This document shows, piece after piece, positions 37,665-54,898 of a stretch of 64,000 nucleotides of DNA. Position numbers and translations under genes: made by a program. The notes below the pieces were generated by a model, which was not told where the DNA came from, ran no database searches, and saw only the letters and a program-made list of their open reading frames with translations. Source of the stretch: Lentilactobacillus raoultii (GTDB taxonomy: Bacteria > Bacillota > Bacilli > Lactobacillales > Lactobacillaceae); contig NZ_LS422992.1 of NCBI RefSeq assembly GCF_900411375.1, positions 1 to 64,000 on the forward strand, in the 5' to 3' direction. The stretch's first letter is position 1. Each line of letters begins with the position of its first letter.

Positions 37665-37772
37665 GTAGTGTTGCTTTATCAACGCATTTCGTGGTGATGG
37701 CCAGTACTGAACTTGAACAGCCGCAACTTCTGGTCTATACTTGATAGACTCATATCGAAAGGAAGGCTTGCC

Positions 37773-40055
37773 ATGTCTGAAAAGGATCTTTTCGCTGACG
37801 GTGAAATTACGGTTCACGGCGCTCGGCAAAATAATTTGAAGGGACTTGATTTGCGAATCCCTAAAAAGCGAACCACGGTTTTTGTTGGGCTTTCCGGTGC
37901 CGGCAAATCGTCGCTGGTTTTTGACACGATTGCGGCTCAGTCACGTCGAGAACTTAATGAAACTTTTCCGAGTTTTACCCAGCAGTACTTGCCAAAATAT
38001 GGTCAACCCGCTGTTCAGTCAATCGATCATTTACCGGTCGCAATTGTGATTGAACAGAAAAAGATTGGGCAGAATGCCCGTTCAACGGTTGCAACATATA
38101 CTGGAATTTATTCATTGTTGCGACTGCTTTTTTCACGAATCGGCAAGCCATTTATTGGCTATTCTGATACCTTTTCATTCAATATGCCACAGGGTATGTG
38201 TCAGACTTGTCAGGGATTGGGATACGTTGACGAAATTGATGAATCGGCACTGGTTGATAAAAACAAGTCGCTCAATCAAGGGGCCATTACCTTTGTCAGC
38301 TTTGGTGTGAATACTTGGCGTTGGCGGCGTTATGCAGACAGCGGTCTTTTTGACAACGATAAGCCTCTAAAGGATTATTCGCCAAAGGAATGGGAATTGT
38401 TAATGCATGCGCCTCAGCAGCAATTACATCATGCACCGGCGGCTTGGCATAAGACCGCGTTATATGAAGGAATTGTTCCGAGAATTCGTCGGTCAATTTT
38501 ACATAAGGCCGAAGCTAAACATCACCGTGCTGAAATTGCCAAAGTGGTGACTCATAAAGCCTGTCCTGATTGTCACGGTACCCGATTAAATGCTCGGGTT
38601 CGATCCAATCACATCAATGGTCAAAACATTGCGGACGTTTGTGCAATGACCTTGGCGGAGGTCGTTCGATTTCTGGCGGCTATTAAAGTCCCGTTGGCGG
38701 CATCAATTATTCGGGAATTAACAACAATGCTGAACTCGTTGATTAACATTGGGCTGGGGTATCTATCGCTAAATCGGGGTACCAATAGTCTTTCCGGCGG
38801 TGAAGCCCAACGAATCAAAATTGCTAAATACTTAAATAGCTCACTGACGGATCTGGTCTACATTTTGGATGAGCCAAGTGTTGGGTTACATCCCCACGAT
38901 ATTCGATTGGTCAAACAAGCCCTTCGACAGTTACAAGCTAGAGGAAATACGGTCTTAATTGTCGAACACAACCCGTTGATGATGAGTGGCGCCGATTATG
39001 CCGTTGAAATTGGTCCGGTTGCCGGAAACGGTGGCGGCCAAATTACGTTTGAAGGATCGTTTGATGCCTTACTCAAGTCCGATACACTGACCGGCCGGTT
39101 CTTACGGCAACCTTATCAATTTAAGACACCGCGAAAAACTGCTCAGGGATTTCTTGAACGCCGGCACATTCAAGAAAACAATTTAAAAGATGTCACGGTT
39201 AAAATACCGCTGGGTGTGATGACGGTCTTCACCGGAGTTGCCGGTTCCGGTAAGAGTTCGCTGGCACGGTCACTAATGAATTCAATTGAGACGCCGATCA
39301 TCAATTTGAATCAACGGGCGGCAAGCGTTAATTTGCGTTCAACCCCGTTGACCTACTTGGGAATTTTTGATAAAATTCGTCAGCGGTTTGCAAAAGCCAA
39401 TCATGTTTCCAGTAGTCTTTTCAGTTACAATGGGAAAGGTGCCTGCCCGACGTGTAAGGGCAAGGGCGTCACGATCACCAATATGGCCTTTATGGATCCG
39501 GTTGTGCAAACCTGTGAGGCCTGTCACGGTCGCCGATATAGTCCTGAAGCGCTGGCTTACCGATATCTCGGTAAAACGATTGCGGACGTCTTGGAAATGA
39601 GTGTGGATCAGGCCAGTAAATTATTTGCCAATGATGACGCAATTGGGCCTCGCATTCATGATCTGCAGCGAGTTGGTTTGGGTTATCTCAAATTGAATCA
39701 GTCGCTGACCACTTTATCTGGTGGTGAATTGCAACGACTTTCGTTGGCAACTCAGTTAAACGGCCAGGGGAATTTAATCTTTTTGGATGAACCGACTGCC
39801 GGGTTGCACATGCAGGATATTCAGCAACTCTTACGCCTATTCAATGAGTTGGTTGATCAAGGAAATACCTTAATTTTGATTGAACATAATTTGACCGTTA
39901 TGACACAGGCGGACTGGTTGGTTGATGTTGGCCCGGATGCCGGCCGCTACGGTGGTCAAATTCTGTATCAGGGACTGCCAACCGGTATTTTAAATCAGCG
40001 GGCTTCTTACACCGGCGTTGCGTTAAAACGGGTTTTGGCTGGCCATGCCAAGTAG
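37773..40055 (+). CDS. UvrA-like ABC ATPase (class II UvrA / drug-resistance type)
   Basis: A 760-aa soluble protein with two ABC ATPase halves. Walker A1 is GLSGAGKSSL near residues 39-48, signature 1 LSGGEAQRIKIA near 339, Walker B1 VYILDEPSVGLHPHD; Walker A2 GVAGSGKSSL near 488, signature 2 LSGGELQRLSLA near 650, Walker B2 LIFLDEPTAGLHMQD. Zinc-module cysteines are kept (CQTCQGLGY, CPDCHGTRL, CPTCKGKGV, CEACHGRRY). It is shorter than housekeeping UvrA (about 940 aa), consistent with the UvrA2/DrrC-like class lacking the UvrB-interacting region. No uvrB is adjacent. The longest frame starts at 37713, but GGAAGG before ATG 37773 fixes the start. Confidence 0.87.
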   Translation: MSEKDLFADGEITVHGARQNNLKGLDLRIPKKRTTVFVGLSGAGKSSLVFDTIAAQSRRELNETFPSFTQQYLPKYGQPAVQSIDHLPVAIVIEQKKIGQNARSTVATYTGIYSLLRLLFSRIGKPFIGYSDTFSFNMPQGMCQTCQGLGYVDEIDESALVDKNKSLNQGAITFVSFGVNTWRWRRYADSGLFDNDKPLKDYSPKEWELLMHAPQQQLHHAPAAWHKTALYEGIVPRIRRSILHKAEAKHHRAEIAKVVTHKACPDCHGTRLNARVRSNHINGQNIADVCAMTLAEVVRFLAAIKVPLAASIIRELTTMLNSLINIGLGYLSLNRGTNSLSGGEAQRIKIAKYLNSSLTDLVYILDEPSVGLHPHDIRLVKQALRQLQARGNTVLIVEHNPLMMSGADYAVEIGPVAGNGGGQITFEGSFDALLKSDTLTGRFLRQPYQFKTPRKTAQGFLERRHIQENNLKDVTVKIPLGVMTVFTGVAGSGKSSLARSLMNSIETPIINLNQRAASVNLRSTPLTYLGIFDKIRQRFAKANHVSSSLFSYNGKGACPTCKGKGVTITNMAFMDPVVQTCEACHGRRYSPEALAYRYLGKTIADVLEMSVDQASKLFANDDAIGPRIHDLQRVGLGYLKLNQSLTTLSGGELQRLSLATQLNGQGNLIFLDEPTAGLHMQDIQQLLRLFNELVDQGNTLILIEHNLTVMTQADWLVDVGPDAGRYGGQILYQGLPTGILNQRASYTGVALKRVLAGHAK

Positions 40056-40243: not shown

Positions 40244-40642
40244 ATGAAAGATAATATTAAATTAGGCGACCCGGTTTTTGACAAAATGTTATTTGTTCTT
40301 GATCGGCCGGTCACTGAAGAAAATCATCGTGACTATCGCTTCGAAAATGAAGAATTACTTCAGATCAGTGATGGCATTTGGGCGATGCCGGCCTACATGA
40401 AGGAAAATGACGAATTCAGTTTATTTTTCATCATTACGCAGATCGATGATGGCCAAACGGTTTTGGCCTTTTCAACCGGTGAAAAAGCTGGGGAGGATTT
40501 TTCACTAAGCAATCCGATTGTGACAGGCAAAGGGCTTAATTTGTTAATGGCGCACGATCAGGATCGAGCGGCTTCAATTTTACATTTTATTAATCAAATC
40601 TCCAAAGCGGCTGAAGGTAACTGGCGCATGGTCGAAGACTAG
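40244..40642 (+). CDS. Conserved-looking hypothetical protein, 132 aa
   Basis: ATG 40244 has a good Shine-Dalgarno GAGGAAAG. The product is acidic and soluble, with an alpha/beta appearance: MLFVLDRPVTEENHRDYRF, then FSLFFIITQIDDGQTVLAFSTGEKAG near residues 62-88, and a C-terminal helical part with GKGLNLLMAHDQDRAASILHFINQI. It vaguely resembles SseB-like domains, but I cannot support that. It follows the His-tailed peptide by 24 nt and may be in the UvrA-like operon. Confidence 0.65.
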   Translation: MKDNIKLGDPVFDKMLFVLDRPVTEENHRDYRFENEELLQISDGIWAMPAYMKENDEFSLFFIITQIDDGQTVLAFSTGEKAGEDFSLSNPIVTGKGLNLLMAHDQDRAASILHFINQISKAAEGNWRMVED

Positions 40643-40773: not shown

Positions 40774-40995
40774 ATGAAACTTTCATTAGCTGATGCCGCA
40801 AAACAATTTAACGTGACGCCTGATGTAATTGCTGATTATATTGCTGAAGGATTGGTTCCGAGCAAGACAGCTTTAGCTGAAGGGATGACGTTGGACGATC
40901 GTGACCGCTACTGGGTAGAGATGGTCCATTGTTTTATTGAAAACGGCTCTTCAATTCAAGAAATTAAGCAACTCATGAAGCATTGTCAACTTTAA
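40774..40995 (+). CDS. Small MerR-like HTH protein
   Basis: A 73-aa protein, MKLSLADAAKQFNVTPDVIADYIAEGLVP followed by DRDRYWVEMVHCFIENGSSIQEIKQLMKHC. This is the HTH part of a MerR-type regulator without a ligand domain. Its start is preceded by CGAGGTAAGTT. It may bind DNA as a dimer. It stands just upstream of the structured RNA at 41.07 kb, but no clear link is visible. Confidence 0.7.
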   Translation: MKLSLADAAKQFNVTPDVIADYIAEGLVPSKTALAEGMTLDDRDRYWVEMVHCFIENGSSIQEIKQLMKHCQL

Positions 40996-41031: not shown

Positions 41032-41060
41032 TTGTCTAATCCCTGAAACGATGATATTCT
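41032..41060 (+). promoter_or_regulatory. Promoter of the 6S-like RNA
   Basis: TTGTCT at 41032-41037, a 17-bp spacer and TATTCT at 41055-41060. Position +1 at seven bases downstream falls exactly on the first G of the closing stem (41067). Confidence 0.7.
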
Positions 41061-41066
41061 GAATTT

Positions 41067-41262
41067 GGGGAAGTCGACATTCTTTTTTGTCGTTAATTAG
41101 ATTCTCGTTTGTATTGGATGTTAGATTACGCAGGTAAGATGACAACAAAGAGTTCCATCGTGCGATTAAGCACTTTGAGTATCCAATAGTAAAATTGGAT
41201 CAGTCTTCGGGTATAAACGATTTAAGATTTAGTTAAAACCAACGAGGATGTCGATCTTCCCC
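41067..41262 (+). ncRNA. ssrS: Structured RNA, candidate 6S RNA
   Basis: About 196 nt without a gene. The ends close on each other: GGGGAAG-TCGACAT at 41067-41080 pairs with ATGTCGA-T-CTTCCCC at 41248-41262. Further in, AATTAGATT pairs with GATTTAGTT, and CGTTTGTA with TATAAACG. A central bubble carries on its 3' strand a perfect hairpin ATCCAAT-AGTAAA-ATTGGAT, and the tip holds CAAAG/CTTTG and GTGC/GCAC stems. A rod of this length with a central bubble and 3'-strand hairpin is the hallmark of 6S RNA, which binds housekeeping RNA polymerase. Alternative: an unknown riboswitch for the downstream CDF gene. Confidence 0.6.
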
Positions 41263-41268
41263 AGATGG

Positions 41269-41300
41269 CCGCTGATGGGTGTTTCCTGTCAGCGGTTTTT
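41269..41300 (+). terminator. Terminator after the 6S-like RNA
   Basis: CCGCTGA and TCAGCGG form a 7-bp stem followed by TTTTT at 41296-41300, seven nt after the closing stem of the RNA. Confidence 0.8.
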
Positions 41301-41341
41301 GTATACCTAAAAATATTGTTTTGAAGGATGGAATTTTTGAG

Positions 41342-41353
41342 TGACAAATGTCA
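41342..41353. promoter_or_regulatory. Palindrome upstream of the CDF gene
   Basis: TGACA-AA-TGTCA is a perfect 12-bp palindrome 34 bp before the preferred ATG at 41388. It could be a metalloregulator operator. If translation starts at the earlier TTG (41337) it would be inside the coding region. Confidence 0.4.
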
Positions 41354-41387: not shown

Positions 41388-42299
41388 ATGCAGGGAGATA
41401 ATCACAGTCATGATGTTTTAAGCGGTGGCCGGTTTTTCTTGGTGACCGTTTTGAATATTTTTATCACGATTGCTGAATTTGTTGGGGGTGTGCTGTCCGG
41501 AAGTTTATCATTAATTTCCGATGCTTTTCATAACTTGGGGGATTCGTTTTCAATTGCCTTTAGTTATGTTGCCCATCGAATCAGCAAAAAGCGGCAAAAC
41601 AAACGGAATACGTTTGGCTACAAGCGGGCTGAAATCATTGCCGCCTTTTTAAATTCAATTGCGTTGTGTTTGATTTGTATTTTTTTGATTATTGAAGCAA
41701 TTAAGCGGTTCTCGCATCCGGAGTCAATTAACGGCAATTTAATGTTGGCGGTTGCGGTCATCGGCCTGATCGCTAATTTTGCATCGGCTTTTATGTTGAA
41801 CGCCGGCTCAAAGCATAACTTGAACATGCGGGCAACTTATTTGCATATTTTGAGTGATGCACTGTCATCGGTTGCCATTATCATTGGCGGTGTATTAATT
41901 GATTTATTCGGCTGGGTTTTGATTGACCCGCTGGTAACGATTTTAGTAGCGGTGTATATTTTTTATGAATCGGTACCGATTATTCGGCAAACCTGTCGGA
42001 TTTTAATGCAGGGGGCGCCGGCAATCGATTATCCGGCAATCAAGCAGGACTTGTTGAAAATTGATGGTGTTTTTGGCGTCCATCATGTGCACGCCTGGTC
42101 AATTGACGAGCATAATGTTATTTTTTCGGCACATGTTAATTTACATGATATGAAAATCAGTCAAGCTCAACACATTTACACAGAGATTGACGAACTGATG
42201 GAAAATAAGTATCATATGTGTCATGTCACCATTCAGGCTGAGACGACTCGTGGTGAGAATGAAGACATGATTTATGATCGGGGAAACGACATTCCCTAA
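41388..42299 (+). CDS. Cation diffusion facilitator (CzcD/ZnT-like metal exporter)
   Basis: About 303 aa with six membrane helices. The family metal sites are visible: SLISDAFHNLGDSFSIAFSYVAHR (His/Asp site in helix 2) and LHILSDALSSVAIIIGGVLIDLFG (helix 5). A C-terminal cytoplasmic domain carries VFGVHHVHAWSID and MCHVTIQAE. It exports Zn, Mn, Co or similar by proton antiport. The frame also allows ATG 41328 or TTG 41337 (AAGGA 8 nt before). ATG 41388, with GGAG 12 nt before, gives the usual His-containing N-terminus MQGDNHSHD and leaves room for a promoter; the start stays uncertain. It is followed after 40 nt by a DtxR/MntR-type regulator. Confidence 0.88.
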   Translation: MQGDNHSHDVLSGGRFFLVTVLNIFITIAEFVGGVLSGSLSLISDAFHNLGDSFSIAFSYVAHRISKKRQNKRNTFGYKRAEIIAAFLNSIALCLICIFLIIEAIKRFSHPESINGNLMLAVAVIGLIANFASAFMLNAGSKHNLNMRATYLHILSDALSSVAIIIGGVLIDLFGWVLIDPLVTILVAVYIFYESVPIIRQTCRILMQGAPAIDYPAIKQDLLKIDGVFGVHHVHAWSIDEHNVIFSAHVNLHDMKISQAQHIYTEIDELMENKYHMCHVTIQAETTRGENEDMIYDRGNDIP

Positions 42300-47982: not shown

Positions 47983-48026
47983 GCATATTGTTAAAAAGTA
48001 AATAATTAGACTAATCAATGTATTCG

Positions 48027-48249
48027 AGTAGAGGCGCATTCATTAAGAGTATATTTCAGGAACTTGAAAAGAAGTCATGACTGAAGTAAAAAGGGATGAG
48101 TGCCGAAATGAGCGGTTACTTTTCTGGCCGTTTGTTGGGACTTAATTTAACAAATTAAGGACTGTCGTAGTTTTGATACTACGGAGAGCTATCAAGATGT
48201 TGAAAAACACTTATCGTCTCTTTCAGTATATTTGAAGGGGACTTTTTTT
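48027..48249 (+). promoter_or_regulatory. Lysine riboswitch (L-box) with terminator
   Basis: The L-box core is readable: AGTAGAGGCGC at 48028-48038, AAGAGTA, AAAGGGATGAGTGCCGAA near 48090-48108, a TTGGGACTT-type segment, and GGACTGTCG..TACGGAGAGCTATC near 48152-48193 that closes the five-helix junction. A terminator stem GTCTCTTTCA (48216-48225) / TGAAGGGGAC (48233-48242) with seven T follows. Lysine binding should favour the terminator and switch off the permease. Confidence 0.88.
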
Positions 48250-53575: not shown

Positions 53576-53934
53576 GAAGCTGTTACATGAGAGGCGACCG
53601 TTGGATAATCAAAAGTGTCAAAAAGAAAAGCTTGGCGGCTAAAAAGGGGGAAGGCTACTAAACATCTAGAGGATTTGTCTGATGAGAGATTGGGCAAGTT
53701 TAAGCAGCCAACGTGCAAAAAAATCCAAAAAAAGTTGAAATTTTTCTGGTAATGACTAGGATAATACGCTATAATATTTCTTGTCGGAATTTGATCGATA
53801 CTTTTGAAACCTAAGTGAACAGCTGATAAAATTTAAAATTATATCTTGACTTTCGTTGAGAGTAAATGGTAAAATTTAATAGTTGTTTTGATGAGATGAC
53901 TACCAATAACAGATGGATTCATGATTGATTTCAT
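53576..53934. other. Gene-free region with tRNA promoter
   Basis: No supported gene is seen. The tRNA cluster promoter is TTGACT (53846-53851), an 18-bp spacer and TAAAAT (53870-53875). Another isolated TATAAT occurs at 53770-53775 without a convincing -35 box. Confidence 0.6.
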
Positions 53935-54007
53935 GGAGGATTAGCTCAGCTGGGAGAGCATCTGCCTTACAAGCAGGAGGTCACAGGTTCGATCCCTGTA
54001 TCCTCCA
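53935..54007 (+). tRNA. tRNA-Val (anticodon TAC)
   Basis: Full cloverleaf: acceptor GGAGGAT/ATCCTCC, anticodon loop CTTACAA, T-arm with GGTTCGATCC. The 3' CCA is not encoded. First of eight tRNAs. Confidence 0.95.
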
Positions 54008-54009
54008 TT

Positions 54010-54082
54010 GAGCCGTTAGCTCAGTTGGTAGAGCATCTGACTTTTAATCAGAGGGTCGGCAGTTCGAGACTGCCACGGCTCA
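54010..54082 (+). tRNA. tRNA-Lys (anticodon TTT)
   Basis: Acceptor GAGCCGT/ACGGCTC; anticodon loop CTTTTAA; T-arm AGTTCGAGACT. Only 2 nt separate it from tRNA-Val. Confidence 0.95.
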
Positions 54083-54100
54083 TTGCCAGTTTTAAACAAT

Positions 54101-54182
54101 GCGGGCGTGGCGGAACTGGCAGACGCGCTAGATTTAGGTTCTAGTGTCTTATGACGTGGGGGTTCGAATCCCTTCGCCCGCA
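54101..54182 (+). tRNA. tRNA-Leu (anticodon TAG)
   Basis: 82 nt with the long variable arm of class II tRNAs; acceptor GCGGGCG/CGCCCGC; anticodon stem CTAGA/TCTAG with loop TTTAGGT. Confidence 0.95.
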
Positions 54183-54200
54183 TAGAACCGTATATAATAT

Positions 54201-54274
54201 GCCGACTTAGCTCAGTTGGTTAGAGCGCTTCACTAGTAATGAAGAGGTCGGGCGTTCGAATCGTCTAGTCGGCA
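54201..54274 (+). tRNA. tRNA-Thr (anticodon AGT)
   Basis: Acceptor GCCGACT/AGTCGGC; anticodon stem CTTCA/TGAAG with loop CTAGTAA. Confidence 0.93.
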
Positions 54275-54278
54275 TTTT

Positions 54279-54350
54279 GCGGAAGTAGTTCAGTGGTAGA
54301 ACATCACCTTGCCATGGTGGGGGTCGCGGGTTCGAATCCCGTCTTCCGCT
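54279..54350 (+). tRNA. tRNA-Gly (anticodon GCC)
   Basis: Acceptor GCGGAAG/CTTCCGC; anticodon stem TCACC/GGTGG with loop TTGCCAT; T-arm CGGGTTCGAATCCCG. Confidence 0.95.
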
Positions 54351-54418
54351 TCCTCGAGAAGCTTTTGTTTGGCGTTATCGGGATACCTAATTGCCTTACT
54401 AAATTGAATATTAATTAT

Positions 54419-54492
54419 GCACCCATAGCGCAACTGGATAGAGTGTCTGACTACGAATCAGAAGGTTGTAGGTTCGACTCCTACTGGGTGCA
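54419..54492 (+). tRNA. tRNA-Arg (anticodon ACG)
   Basis: Acceptor GCACCCA/TGGGTGC; anticodon stem TCTGA/TCAGA with loop CTACGAA, A34 expected to become inosine. Confidence 0.94.
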
Positions 54493-54527
54493 TTTTTTAC
54501 TGTCGTGGATTTGGCAGTTGGCAATTT

Positions 54528-54601
54528 CGGGAAGTAGCTCAGCTTGGTAGAGCACCTGGTTTGGGACCAGGGGGTCGCAGGTTCGAATCCTGTCTTCCCG
54601 A
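54528..54601 (+). tRNA. tRNA-Pro (anticodon TGG)
   Basis: Acceptor CGGGAAG/CTTCCCG; anticodon stem CCTGG/CCAGG with loop TTTGGGA. Confidence 0.95.
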
Positions 54602-54666
54602 CTATTTGGCCTATTATATAAATGTATGGTAGTATGTGATGGATTAATTAAATATTTTTTGATTAT

Positions 54667-54740
54667 CGGGAAATAGCTCAGCTTGGTAGAGCACTACGTT
54701 CGGGACGTAGGGGTCGCAAGTTCAAATCTTGTTTTCCCGA
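54667..54740 (+). tRNA. tRNA-Pro (anticodon CGG)
   Basis: Acceptor CGGGAAA/TTTCCCG; anticodon stem CTACG/CGTAG with loop TTCGGGA. It resembles the preceding tRNA-Pro and is followed by eight or more T. Confidence 0.92.
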
Positions 54741-54898
54741 TTTTTTTTGTCGACATTTTAACGATTTATGACTTGAATTTTTGACATTCCTATATATAAT
54801 GGGCTGAAAGAAACTGATAATAAGACGTGGTTATTTGGTCAATTTGAGGTAACAATTAATCTCATTTCGTTTTTAAAAAGCTGTTTGAAACCTTTTCT

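Follow-up and report, generated by a model that had tools for sequence, protein, structure and literature searches.

6S RNA is held to occur in nearly all bacteria. The locus studied here, in a 64,000-nucleotide stretch of Lentilactobacillus raoultii DNA (the window), poses the question of whether an unannotated RNA gene that looks like 6S in outline, and that adjoins a metal-exporter gene, encodes a 6S RNA, a riboswitch or something else. An earlier note on this DNA had matched the RNA to 6S while pointing out the riboswitch-like layout. We find that the RNA is structured and non-coding, matches no Rfam family and is encoded by a stand-alone gene present once per genome, a description that the sequences support in both Lentilactobacillus and Secundilactobacillus. 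As judged by sequence and covariance models, the RNA is not a 6S family member as tested. Our best reading is a new family of trans-acting RNAs. Within it, the leading single mechanism is binding to RNA polymerase, as known for 6S and Ms1; it is unproven, and we give it a probability of roughly 40%.

Results

Anatomy of the RNA gene

The RNA gene, its parts and its two flanking genes all lie on the + strand of the window. The putative promoter (41032–41060) combines a −35 element, TTGTCT (41032–41037), a 17-nt spacer and an extended −10 element, TGATATTCT, with TATTCT at 41055–41060 and the upstream TG at 41052–41053. It is placed to start transcription at the G at 41067, exactly as the earlier note had predicted. 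Because the promoter matches only 8 of 12 consensus bases, it is missing from the list of a simple promoter scan with a threshold of 9, and its support comes from conservation rather than score: the layout TTG-N17-TGnTAnnCT precedes the RNA start in 24/24 Lentilactobacillus copies. The RNA body (~196 nt; 41067–41262) takes its 5′ end from the promoter and its 3′ end from the point where the closing stem ends. An intrinsic terminator follows at 41267–41301, and its 13-pair stem–loop (41267–41297), also anticipated by the note, is the one terminator-like site found by the scan. A terminator is recognised by script in 23/24 Lentilactobacillus copies, 19–38 bases past the end of the covariance model R1 described below; the one copy missed by the script has a long stem and a T run by eye. 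In Secundilactobacillus, for which nine copies were folded once and six in another set that partly comprised the same copies, there is a promoter-like −10 element and a terminator-like hairpin with a T run 3′ of the closing stem. We regard this anatomy as very nearly certain. An Rfam search at E ≤ 10 over 501 bases around the RNA returned three chance matches to other families and none to the 6S model RF00013.

Several other features of the window can be recorded. Rfam models match a RAGATH-18 RNA at 66–131 (58.2 bits, cut-off 44.9) and a lysine riboswitch at 48021–48199 (121.8 bits), and eight tRNA genes cluster at 53934–54741. A 780-residue open reading frame at 37713–40055 presumably encodes a UvrA-type excinuclease ABC ATPase, judging from its translation. 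A 132-residue protein encoded at 40244–40642, with no Pfam match at E ≤ 0.001, occurs near this place in many relatives.

Predicted structure and covariation

The segment 41067–41262 folds at −69.7 kcal/mol, compared with −40.2 ± 4.0 for 200 dinucleotide shuffles, none of which is as stable (z = −7.42). Body and terminator together give z = −9.0; in the predicted fold, the terminator forms a hairpin of its own and leaves the pairing of the body intact. The outer closing stem has its 5′ strand at 41067–41086 and its partner at about 41243–41262, and the paired ends proposed earlier (41067–41080 with 41248–41262) pair in this fold. Two inner rod helices, with 5′ strands TTAATTAGATT and TCGTTTGTAT (41093–41114) and partners at 41226–41236 and 41211–41220, are part of the consensus structure. 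Above them stand hairpin H1 (TGTTA…TGACA; 41119–41144), hairpin H2 (GTGC…GCAC; 41160–41173), a TTTGAGT linker that is near-invariant in an alignment of 28 copies (41174–41180) and hairpin H3 (ATCCAAT-AGTAAA-ATTGGAT; 41181–41200), which is followed by a conserved CAG. Of the irregular rod with a central bubble described in the earlier note, the rod is there, and the bubble is modelled as a junction of several hairpins and not as a clear open bulge.

Changes that preserve pairing are common. Among 16 close relatives, compensatory changes occur in 14/54 predicted pairs, and the 15 distinct rows contain 54 doubly changed cells, against 18.2 ± 4.6 in shuffles; sliding the structures by 1–3 columns in this alignment leaves 36–46% of cells paired. 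The close-relative signal sits in the two outer helices, where 9/11 consensus pairs show both-sided changes, and in H3. In one inner helix just one pair is changed on both sides, and the remaining helices show one-sided variation or none. The inner rod helices are largely invariant in sequence and are therefore weakly tested by covariation, and so is H1, which shows one-sided changes only and varies outside the main Lentilactobacillus group. In an alignment of both genera (28/30 copies, with two near-copies left out; 27 distinct), 51 cells are doubly changed, compared with 15.0 ± 4.7 in shuffles. Across these copies, H3, the 3′-strand hairpin singled out in the note, has both-sided changes in 7/7 pairs and 99.5% of cells paired. 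H2, which belongs to the core common to Secundilactobacillus, has 100% of cells paired and both-sided change in 1/4 pairs (U-A to C-G in 7/27 distinct rows). An extra helix under H3, formed by UUGAGU with the strand after CAG and paired in 83% of cells, is tentative.

Distribution and the conserved core

BLASTN finds the RNA in 16/24 Lentilactobacillus genomes, and covariance model R1, built from those 16 copies, has exactly one match in each of the 24/24 Lentilactobacillus genomes when run against 397 genomes of the family. Elsewhere among the 397 there are three weak R1 matches, all in Secundilactobacillus. A search of 35 loci with R1 added three further named Secundilactobacillus loci and gave no match at the Apilactobacillus and Limosilactobacillus CDF loci. 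A second model, R3, describes an 84-position core and scores 59–96 bits in 24/24 Lentilactobacillus genomes, 50–77 bits in 13 Secundilactobacillus genomes and 31–32 bits in two more. Because these last two copies share the neighbourhood of the others, between a MerR-type gene and an acetyltransferase-like gene plus CDF gene, we count 15 Secundilactobacillus genomes, a number of carriers found and not a fraction of the genus. The S. angelensis locus, which spans only ~1040 bases before the CDF gene, matches neither R1 nor R3. At E ≤ 0.1, R3 matches 98/397 genomes in 23 genera, comprising the 24 Lentilactobacillus genomes, the 15 Secundilactobacillus genomes and 59 others. All of the 59 score at most 25.9 bits, and we take them as noise because scores of up to 22.3 bits also occur at second, unrelated sites of Lentilactobacillus genomes (19.8 bits in the window's own genome); the best-scoring of the 59, which is the one we examined, lies inside a coding gene. 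The family-wide covariance scans used stricter filters, with which weak matches are lost.

Sequence conservation between the two genera lies in the small core and not in the rod. This pattern, together with the presence of canonical 6S beside the RNA in Secundilactobacillus (see below), is consistent with a trans-acting RNA of another kind, in which the H2-UUUGAGU-H3-CAG core and the adjacent stretch would base-pair with mRNAs or contact some non-polymerase regulatory protein, and the rod would be a stabilising scaffold. Against this reading, a rod with a closing stem at the RNA start is predicted in both genera. In Secundilactobacillus, it is mainly the core that carries the R1 and R3 scores, and the rod is judged from single-sequence folds. 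We give such a role slightly less than an even chance, spread over all non-polymerase modes, none of which has specific support. In the Secundilactobacillus copies, the 3′ strand also has an extra AU-rich hairpin ahead of the closing stem, which does not appear in the Lentilactobacillus folds.

Relationship to 6S RNA

In describing an unannotated, stand-alone, rod-shaped RNA with a 6S-like outline, the earlier note was right. The RNA is a rod within the 160–200 nt range with a long closing stem, its own promoter and its own terminator, and H3 corresponds to the hairpin that 6S has in its central region on the 3′ strand. The assignment to 6S itself fails. The Rfam check that the note had called for gives no RF00013 match at E ≤ 10 around the RNA and none in the window's own genome; none of 24 Lentilactobacillus genomes and none of 11 relatives' loci of the RNA has a match at E ≤ 1. 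The same search is positive in 47/121 family genomes and in 5/14 named controls, including Lactococcus lactis and Bacillus subtilis. We also built R2, a lineage-specific model of lactic-acid-bacteria 6S, from 28 of 30 fetched canonical 6S sequences, leaving out two near-copies; its structure is thin (16 pairs), which makes it mostly a sequence profile. R2 scores 146–151 bits on three held-out Secundilactobacillus 6S sequences and at E ≤ 10 matches none of 13 loci from the family of the window RNA.

Model folds also differ in the head of the molecule. There the RNA appears to have three short hairpins where 6S has an open 5′ bulge and a long apical arm, and in the consensus fold the place of that arm is taken by the 4-bp hairpin H2. 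Head hairpins give a median of four loops in the RNA versus three in canonical 6S, and the longest unpaired run in the 5′ half has a median of 6.5 nt in 24 copies versus 9 nt in 28 canonical 6S sequences, with overlapping ranges. 6S binds SigA–RNA polymerase and serves as the template of pRNAs; we recognise no pRNA template or polymerase contact in the RNA. Its genomic place is not the 6S site between rarA and uspA but next to a CDF gene.

R2 finds canonical 6S in all 15 Secundilactobacillus genomes that carry the RNA, and RF00013 also finds it in seven of them, four over the cut-off. Coexistence of the two means that the RNA cannot simply be a moved 6S. A 6S of Lentilactobacillus that has relocated and diverged, or an ancient 6S paralogue, would explain the length, the rod, the promoter and terminator and the 3′-strand hairpin, as well as a genus otherwise without 6S. 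The failure of both models argues against 6S membership, and relocation is contradicted by Secundilactobacillus, where homologs of the RNA occupy the equivalent position near CDF in genomes with a canonical 6S as well. We consider 6S membership improbable, and it would take the form of an ancient paralogue (a 6S-2). Lacto-usp RNA has itself been suggested as a possible 6S. We also rejected identity with this RNA, which is absent from five sampled Lentilactobacillus genomes and gives no match at the window RNA.

Apparent loss of canonical 6S from Lentilactobacillus

In lactic acid bacteria, the 6S gene lies between rarA and uspA (PMC8414754). With rarA in view at 31/33 canonical 6S loci, the rarA–uspA distance could be measured at 29/33 (two lack rarA and two lack uspA in view) and is 577–842 nt, compared with 357–544 nt in 23 Lentilactobacillus genomes. 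These 23 genomes account for 24 rarA loci, one genome being represented twice; the 24th genome showed only the other rarA. The rarA–uspA interval lacks about 300 nt in 23/23 Lentilactobacillus genomes examined, and in each of them the small gene that elsewhere lies beyond 6S starts between −10 and +30 nt relative to the rarA stop. The 544 nt of the window's genome results from extra sequence 3′ of this small gene. A 6S hidden in the 232-nt gap before uspA in that genome was considered and rejected, as the gap forms no rod with paired ends and relatives lack most of it. Two rarA-type genes are present in 15/24 Lentilactobacillus genomes, including the window's; a comparison of the two, where made, shows the 6S-type neighbourhood at just one.

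Across the family, R2 matches 276/397 genomes and 29/40 genera, with none in Lentilactobacillus, where the best score over 24 genomes is 16.1 bits and the best matches fall at scattered places. For the 11/40 genera without an R2 match, we make no claim that 6S is absent. On the combined evidence of models and gene order, canonical 6S seems to have been lost from Lentilactobacillus, and a very diverged 6S elsewhere in these genomes is possible. The earlier note had held that a missing covariance hit combined with unconserved arms, or a better 6S gene elsewhere in the genome, would speak against 6S. The findings divide: there is no covariance hit, yet the arms are strongly conserved, and neither 6S model finds a 6S elsewhere in the window's genome, likely because 6S was deleted from the genus.

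A 2021 survey reported 6S in over 91% of lactic-acid-bacteria genomes, requiring for a call either a strong model hit or closeness to rarA/uspA, and took a missing 6S as an assembly gap where relatives had one; its main text, in the available part, does not mention buchneri, hilgardii, kisonensis or kefiri (PMC8414754). The open-access literature, in a search that largely misses subscription journals, yielded no report on 6S RNA in Lentilactobacillus. On the whole basis of that search, both the RNA and the loss of 6S appear to be undescribed.

Genomic context of the RNA gene

The CDF cation-efflux gene (41388–42299; Pfam Cation_efflux, E = 1.4e-47) is a neighbour and not part of the RNA gene; the nearest hits of its protein among named genomes are in Lentilactobacillus hilgardii (88%), farraginis (86%) and parafarraginis (84%). 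Upstream lies a gene for a 73-residue MerR-type HTH protein (40774–40995; Pfam MerR_1, E = 9.7e-10), which is often but not always the neighbour. The CDF gene begins <450 bases past the RNA core in 19/24 Lentilactobacillus genomes, including the window. In the other 5/24 it is 1000–1331 bases away, with a same-strand gene of 190–222 codons between; the five intervening genes begin much alike, and we take their product to be an oxidoreductase. In 14/14 scorable Secundilactobacillus loci (1 of 15 ends before the CDF gene), the distance is 967–1745 bases and an acetyltransferase-like gene intervenes, on the opposite strand in two. A script placed the intervening gene at 11/19 of these loci, and at the remaining eight, all from Secundilactobacillus, it is seen from synteny. 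The changing downstream gene means that the RNA is no simple leader of the CDF gene, as the layout had suggested, and points to action in trans. The upstream neighbour also differs among genomes.

A metal-sensing riboswitch or transcription attenuator of the exporter would fit the 19/24 Lentilactobacillus genomes in which the RNA lies directly upstream of the CDF gene with a terminator between them. We consider it very unlikely, given the gene that intervenes in 5/24 Lentilactobacillus and 14/14 scorable Secundilactobacillus loci and a terminator that is predicted to form independently of the body. Moreover, known Rfam riboswitch models have no match at the RNA, in keeping with the earlier statement that yybP-ykoY and NiCo signatures are lacking. 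The two exclusive folds proposed in the note, through TTGGAT of the 5′ strand and ATCCAA of H3, are possible in the window; the exact 6-base partner is present in only 2/24 Lentilactobacillus copies, the window's included, and by this comparison the alternative pairing is no conserved switch.

The least credible reading, an artefact of a chance inverted repeat or of conservation imposed by a protein on either strand, could appeal to stop-free runs that reach 67 codons on the antisense strand of some copies, but its probability is negligible: the stability of the fold speaks against it, pair-preserving changes far above shuffles and slid controls refute it, and a conserved protein is ruled out by gap lengths (in alignment A2, 69/77 internal gaps have a length that three does not divide) and by longest stop-free stretches that vary from 20 to 55 codons in sense and from 29 to 67 in antisense among 30 copies.

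Discussion

We infer that the RNA is expressed, acts in trans and has a protein partner, which is most likely RNA polymerase, the partner of 6S and Ms1. In this mechanism, the long closing stem beginning at +1 could serve as a duplex grip, and the H2–H3 core could be the recognition part. When Lentilactobacillus lost 6S, the RNA, which in Secundilactobacillus still accompanies 6S, would have continued or assumed the global control of transcription. The outline of the RNA and the loss of 6S from the genus speak for polymerase binding; its different head and its presence beside 6S in Secundilactobacillus speak against it. Because Secundilactobacillus has both RNAs together, the RNA probably did not arise as a replacement for 6S.

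A more specific scenario is that Lentilactobacillus replaced 6S with a non-homologous, 6S-shaped, polymerase-binding RNA, with Secundilactobacillus as an intermediate state in which both coexist. We regard this scenario as rather unlikely. If it is true, Ms1 and CoRP would be joined by a third non-6S class of abundant RNAs that bind polymerase, to our knowledge the first of the known classes outside Actinobacteria. There is precedent for clades that lack 6S and have another polymerase-binding RNA, namely Ms1 (PMC4191392, PMC9130861) and CoRP (PMC11077062). The available part of the CoRP study proposes that each species has one abundant type of polymerase-associated RNA, whatever its origin (PMC11077062). 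Two polymerase-binding RNAs per genome would sit badly with this proposal as described there. More broadly, a genus with 6S cleanly excised and a rod-shaped RNA of a different family throughout amounts to a natural experiment, and Lentilactobacillus offers a test of the one-type-per-species proposal (PMC11077062).

Among known systems, the lactic-acid-bacteria form of 6S (ssrS, RF00013) is the closest in outline, sharing a rod of ~190 nt, a closing stem at the transcript end, a promoter and terminator of its own and the 3′-strand hairpin of the central region. In contrast, the window RNA has no covariance or sequence match to 6S, another genomic place and a three-hairpin head, and it coexists with true 6S in Secundilactobacillus. 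The yybP-ykoY and NiCo metal riboswitches resemble it in their place before a metal exporter in some genomes; they differ in having no Rfam match at the RNA, whose linkage to an exporter is absent in some relatives. Lacto-usp RNA (RF01710) is likewise a Lactobacillus-specific structured RNA but occurs in 4/121 family genomes and in 0/5 Lentilactobacillus genomes of the sample. CoRP of Corynebacterium is also genus-restricted, in a clade where no 6S was found, but is ~500 nt long, has a tRNA neighbourhood and has been shown to bind RNA polymerase, as reported in the available part of PMC11077062. Ms1 of Actinobacteria, whose hallmarks are binding to the RNA polymerase core and abundance in stationary phase and which we compare by description only, is a structured RNA of 6S-like outline from a clade without 6S (PMC9130861, as available); polymerase binding has been shown for Ms1 and is a proposal for the window RNA.
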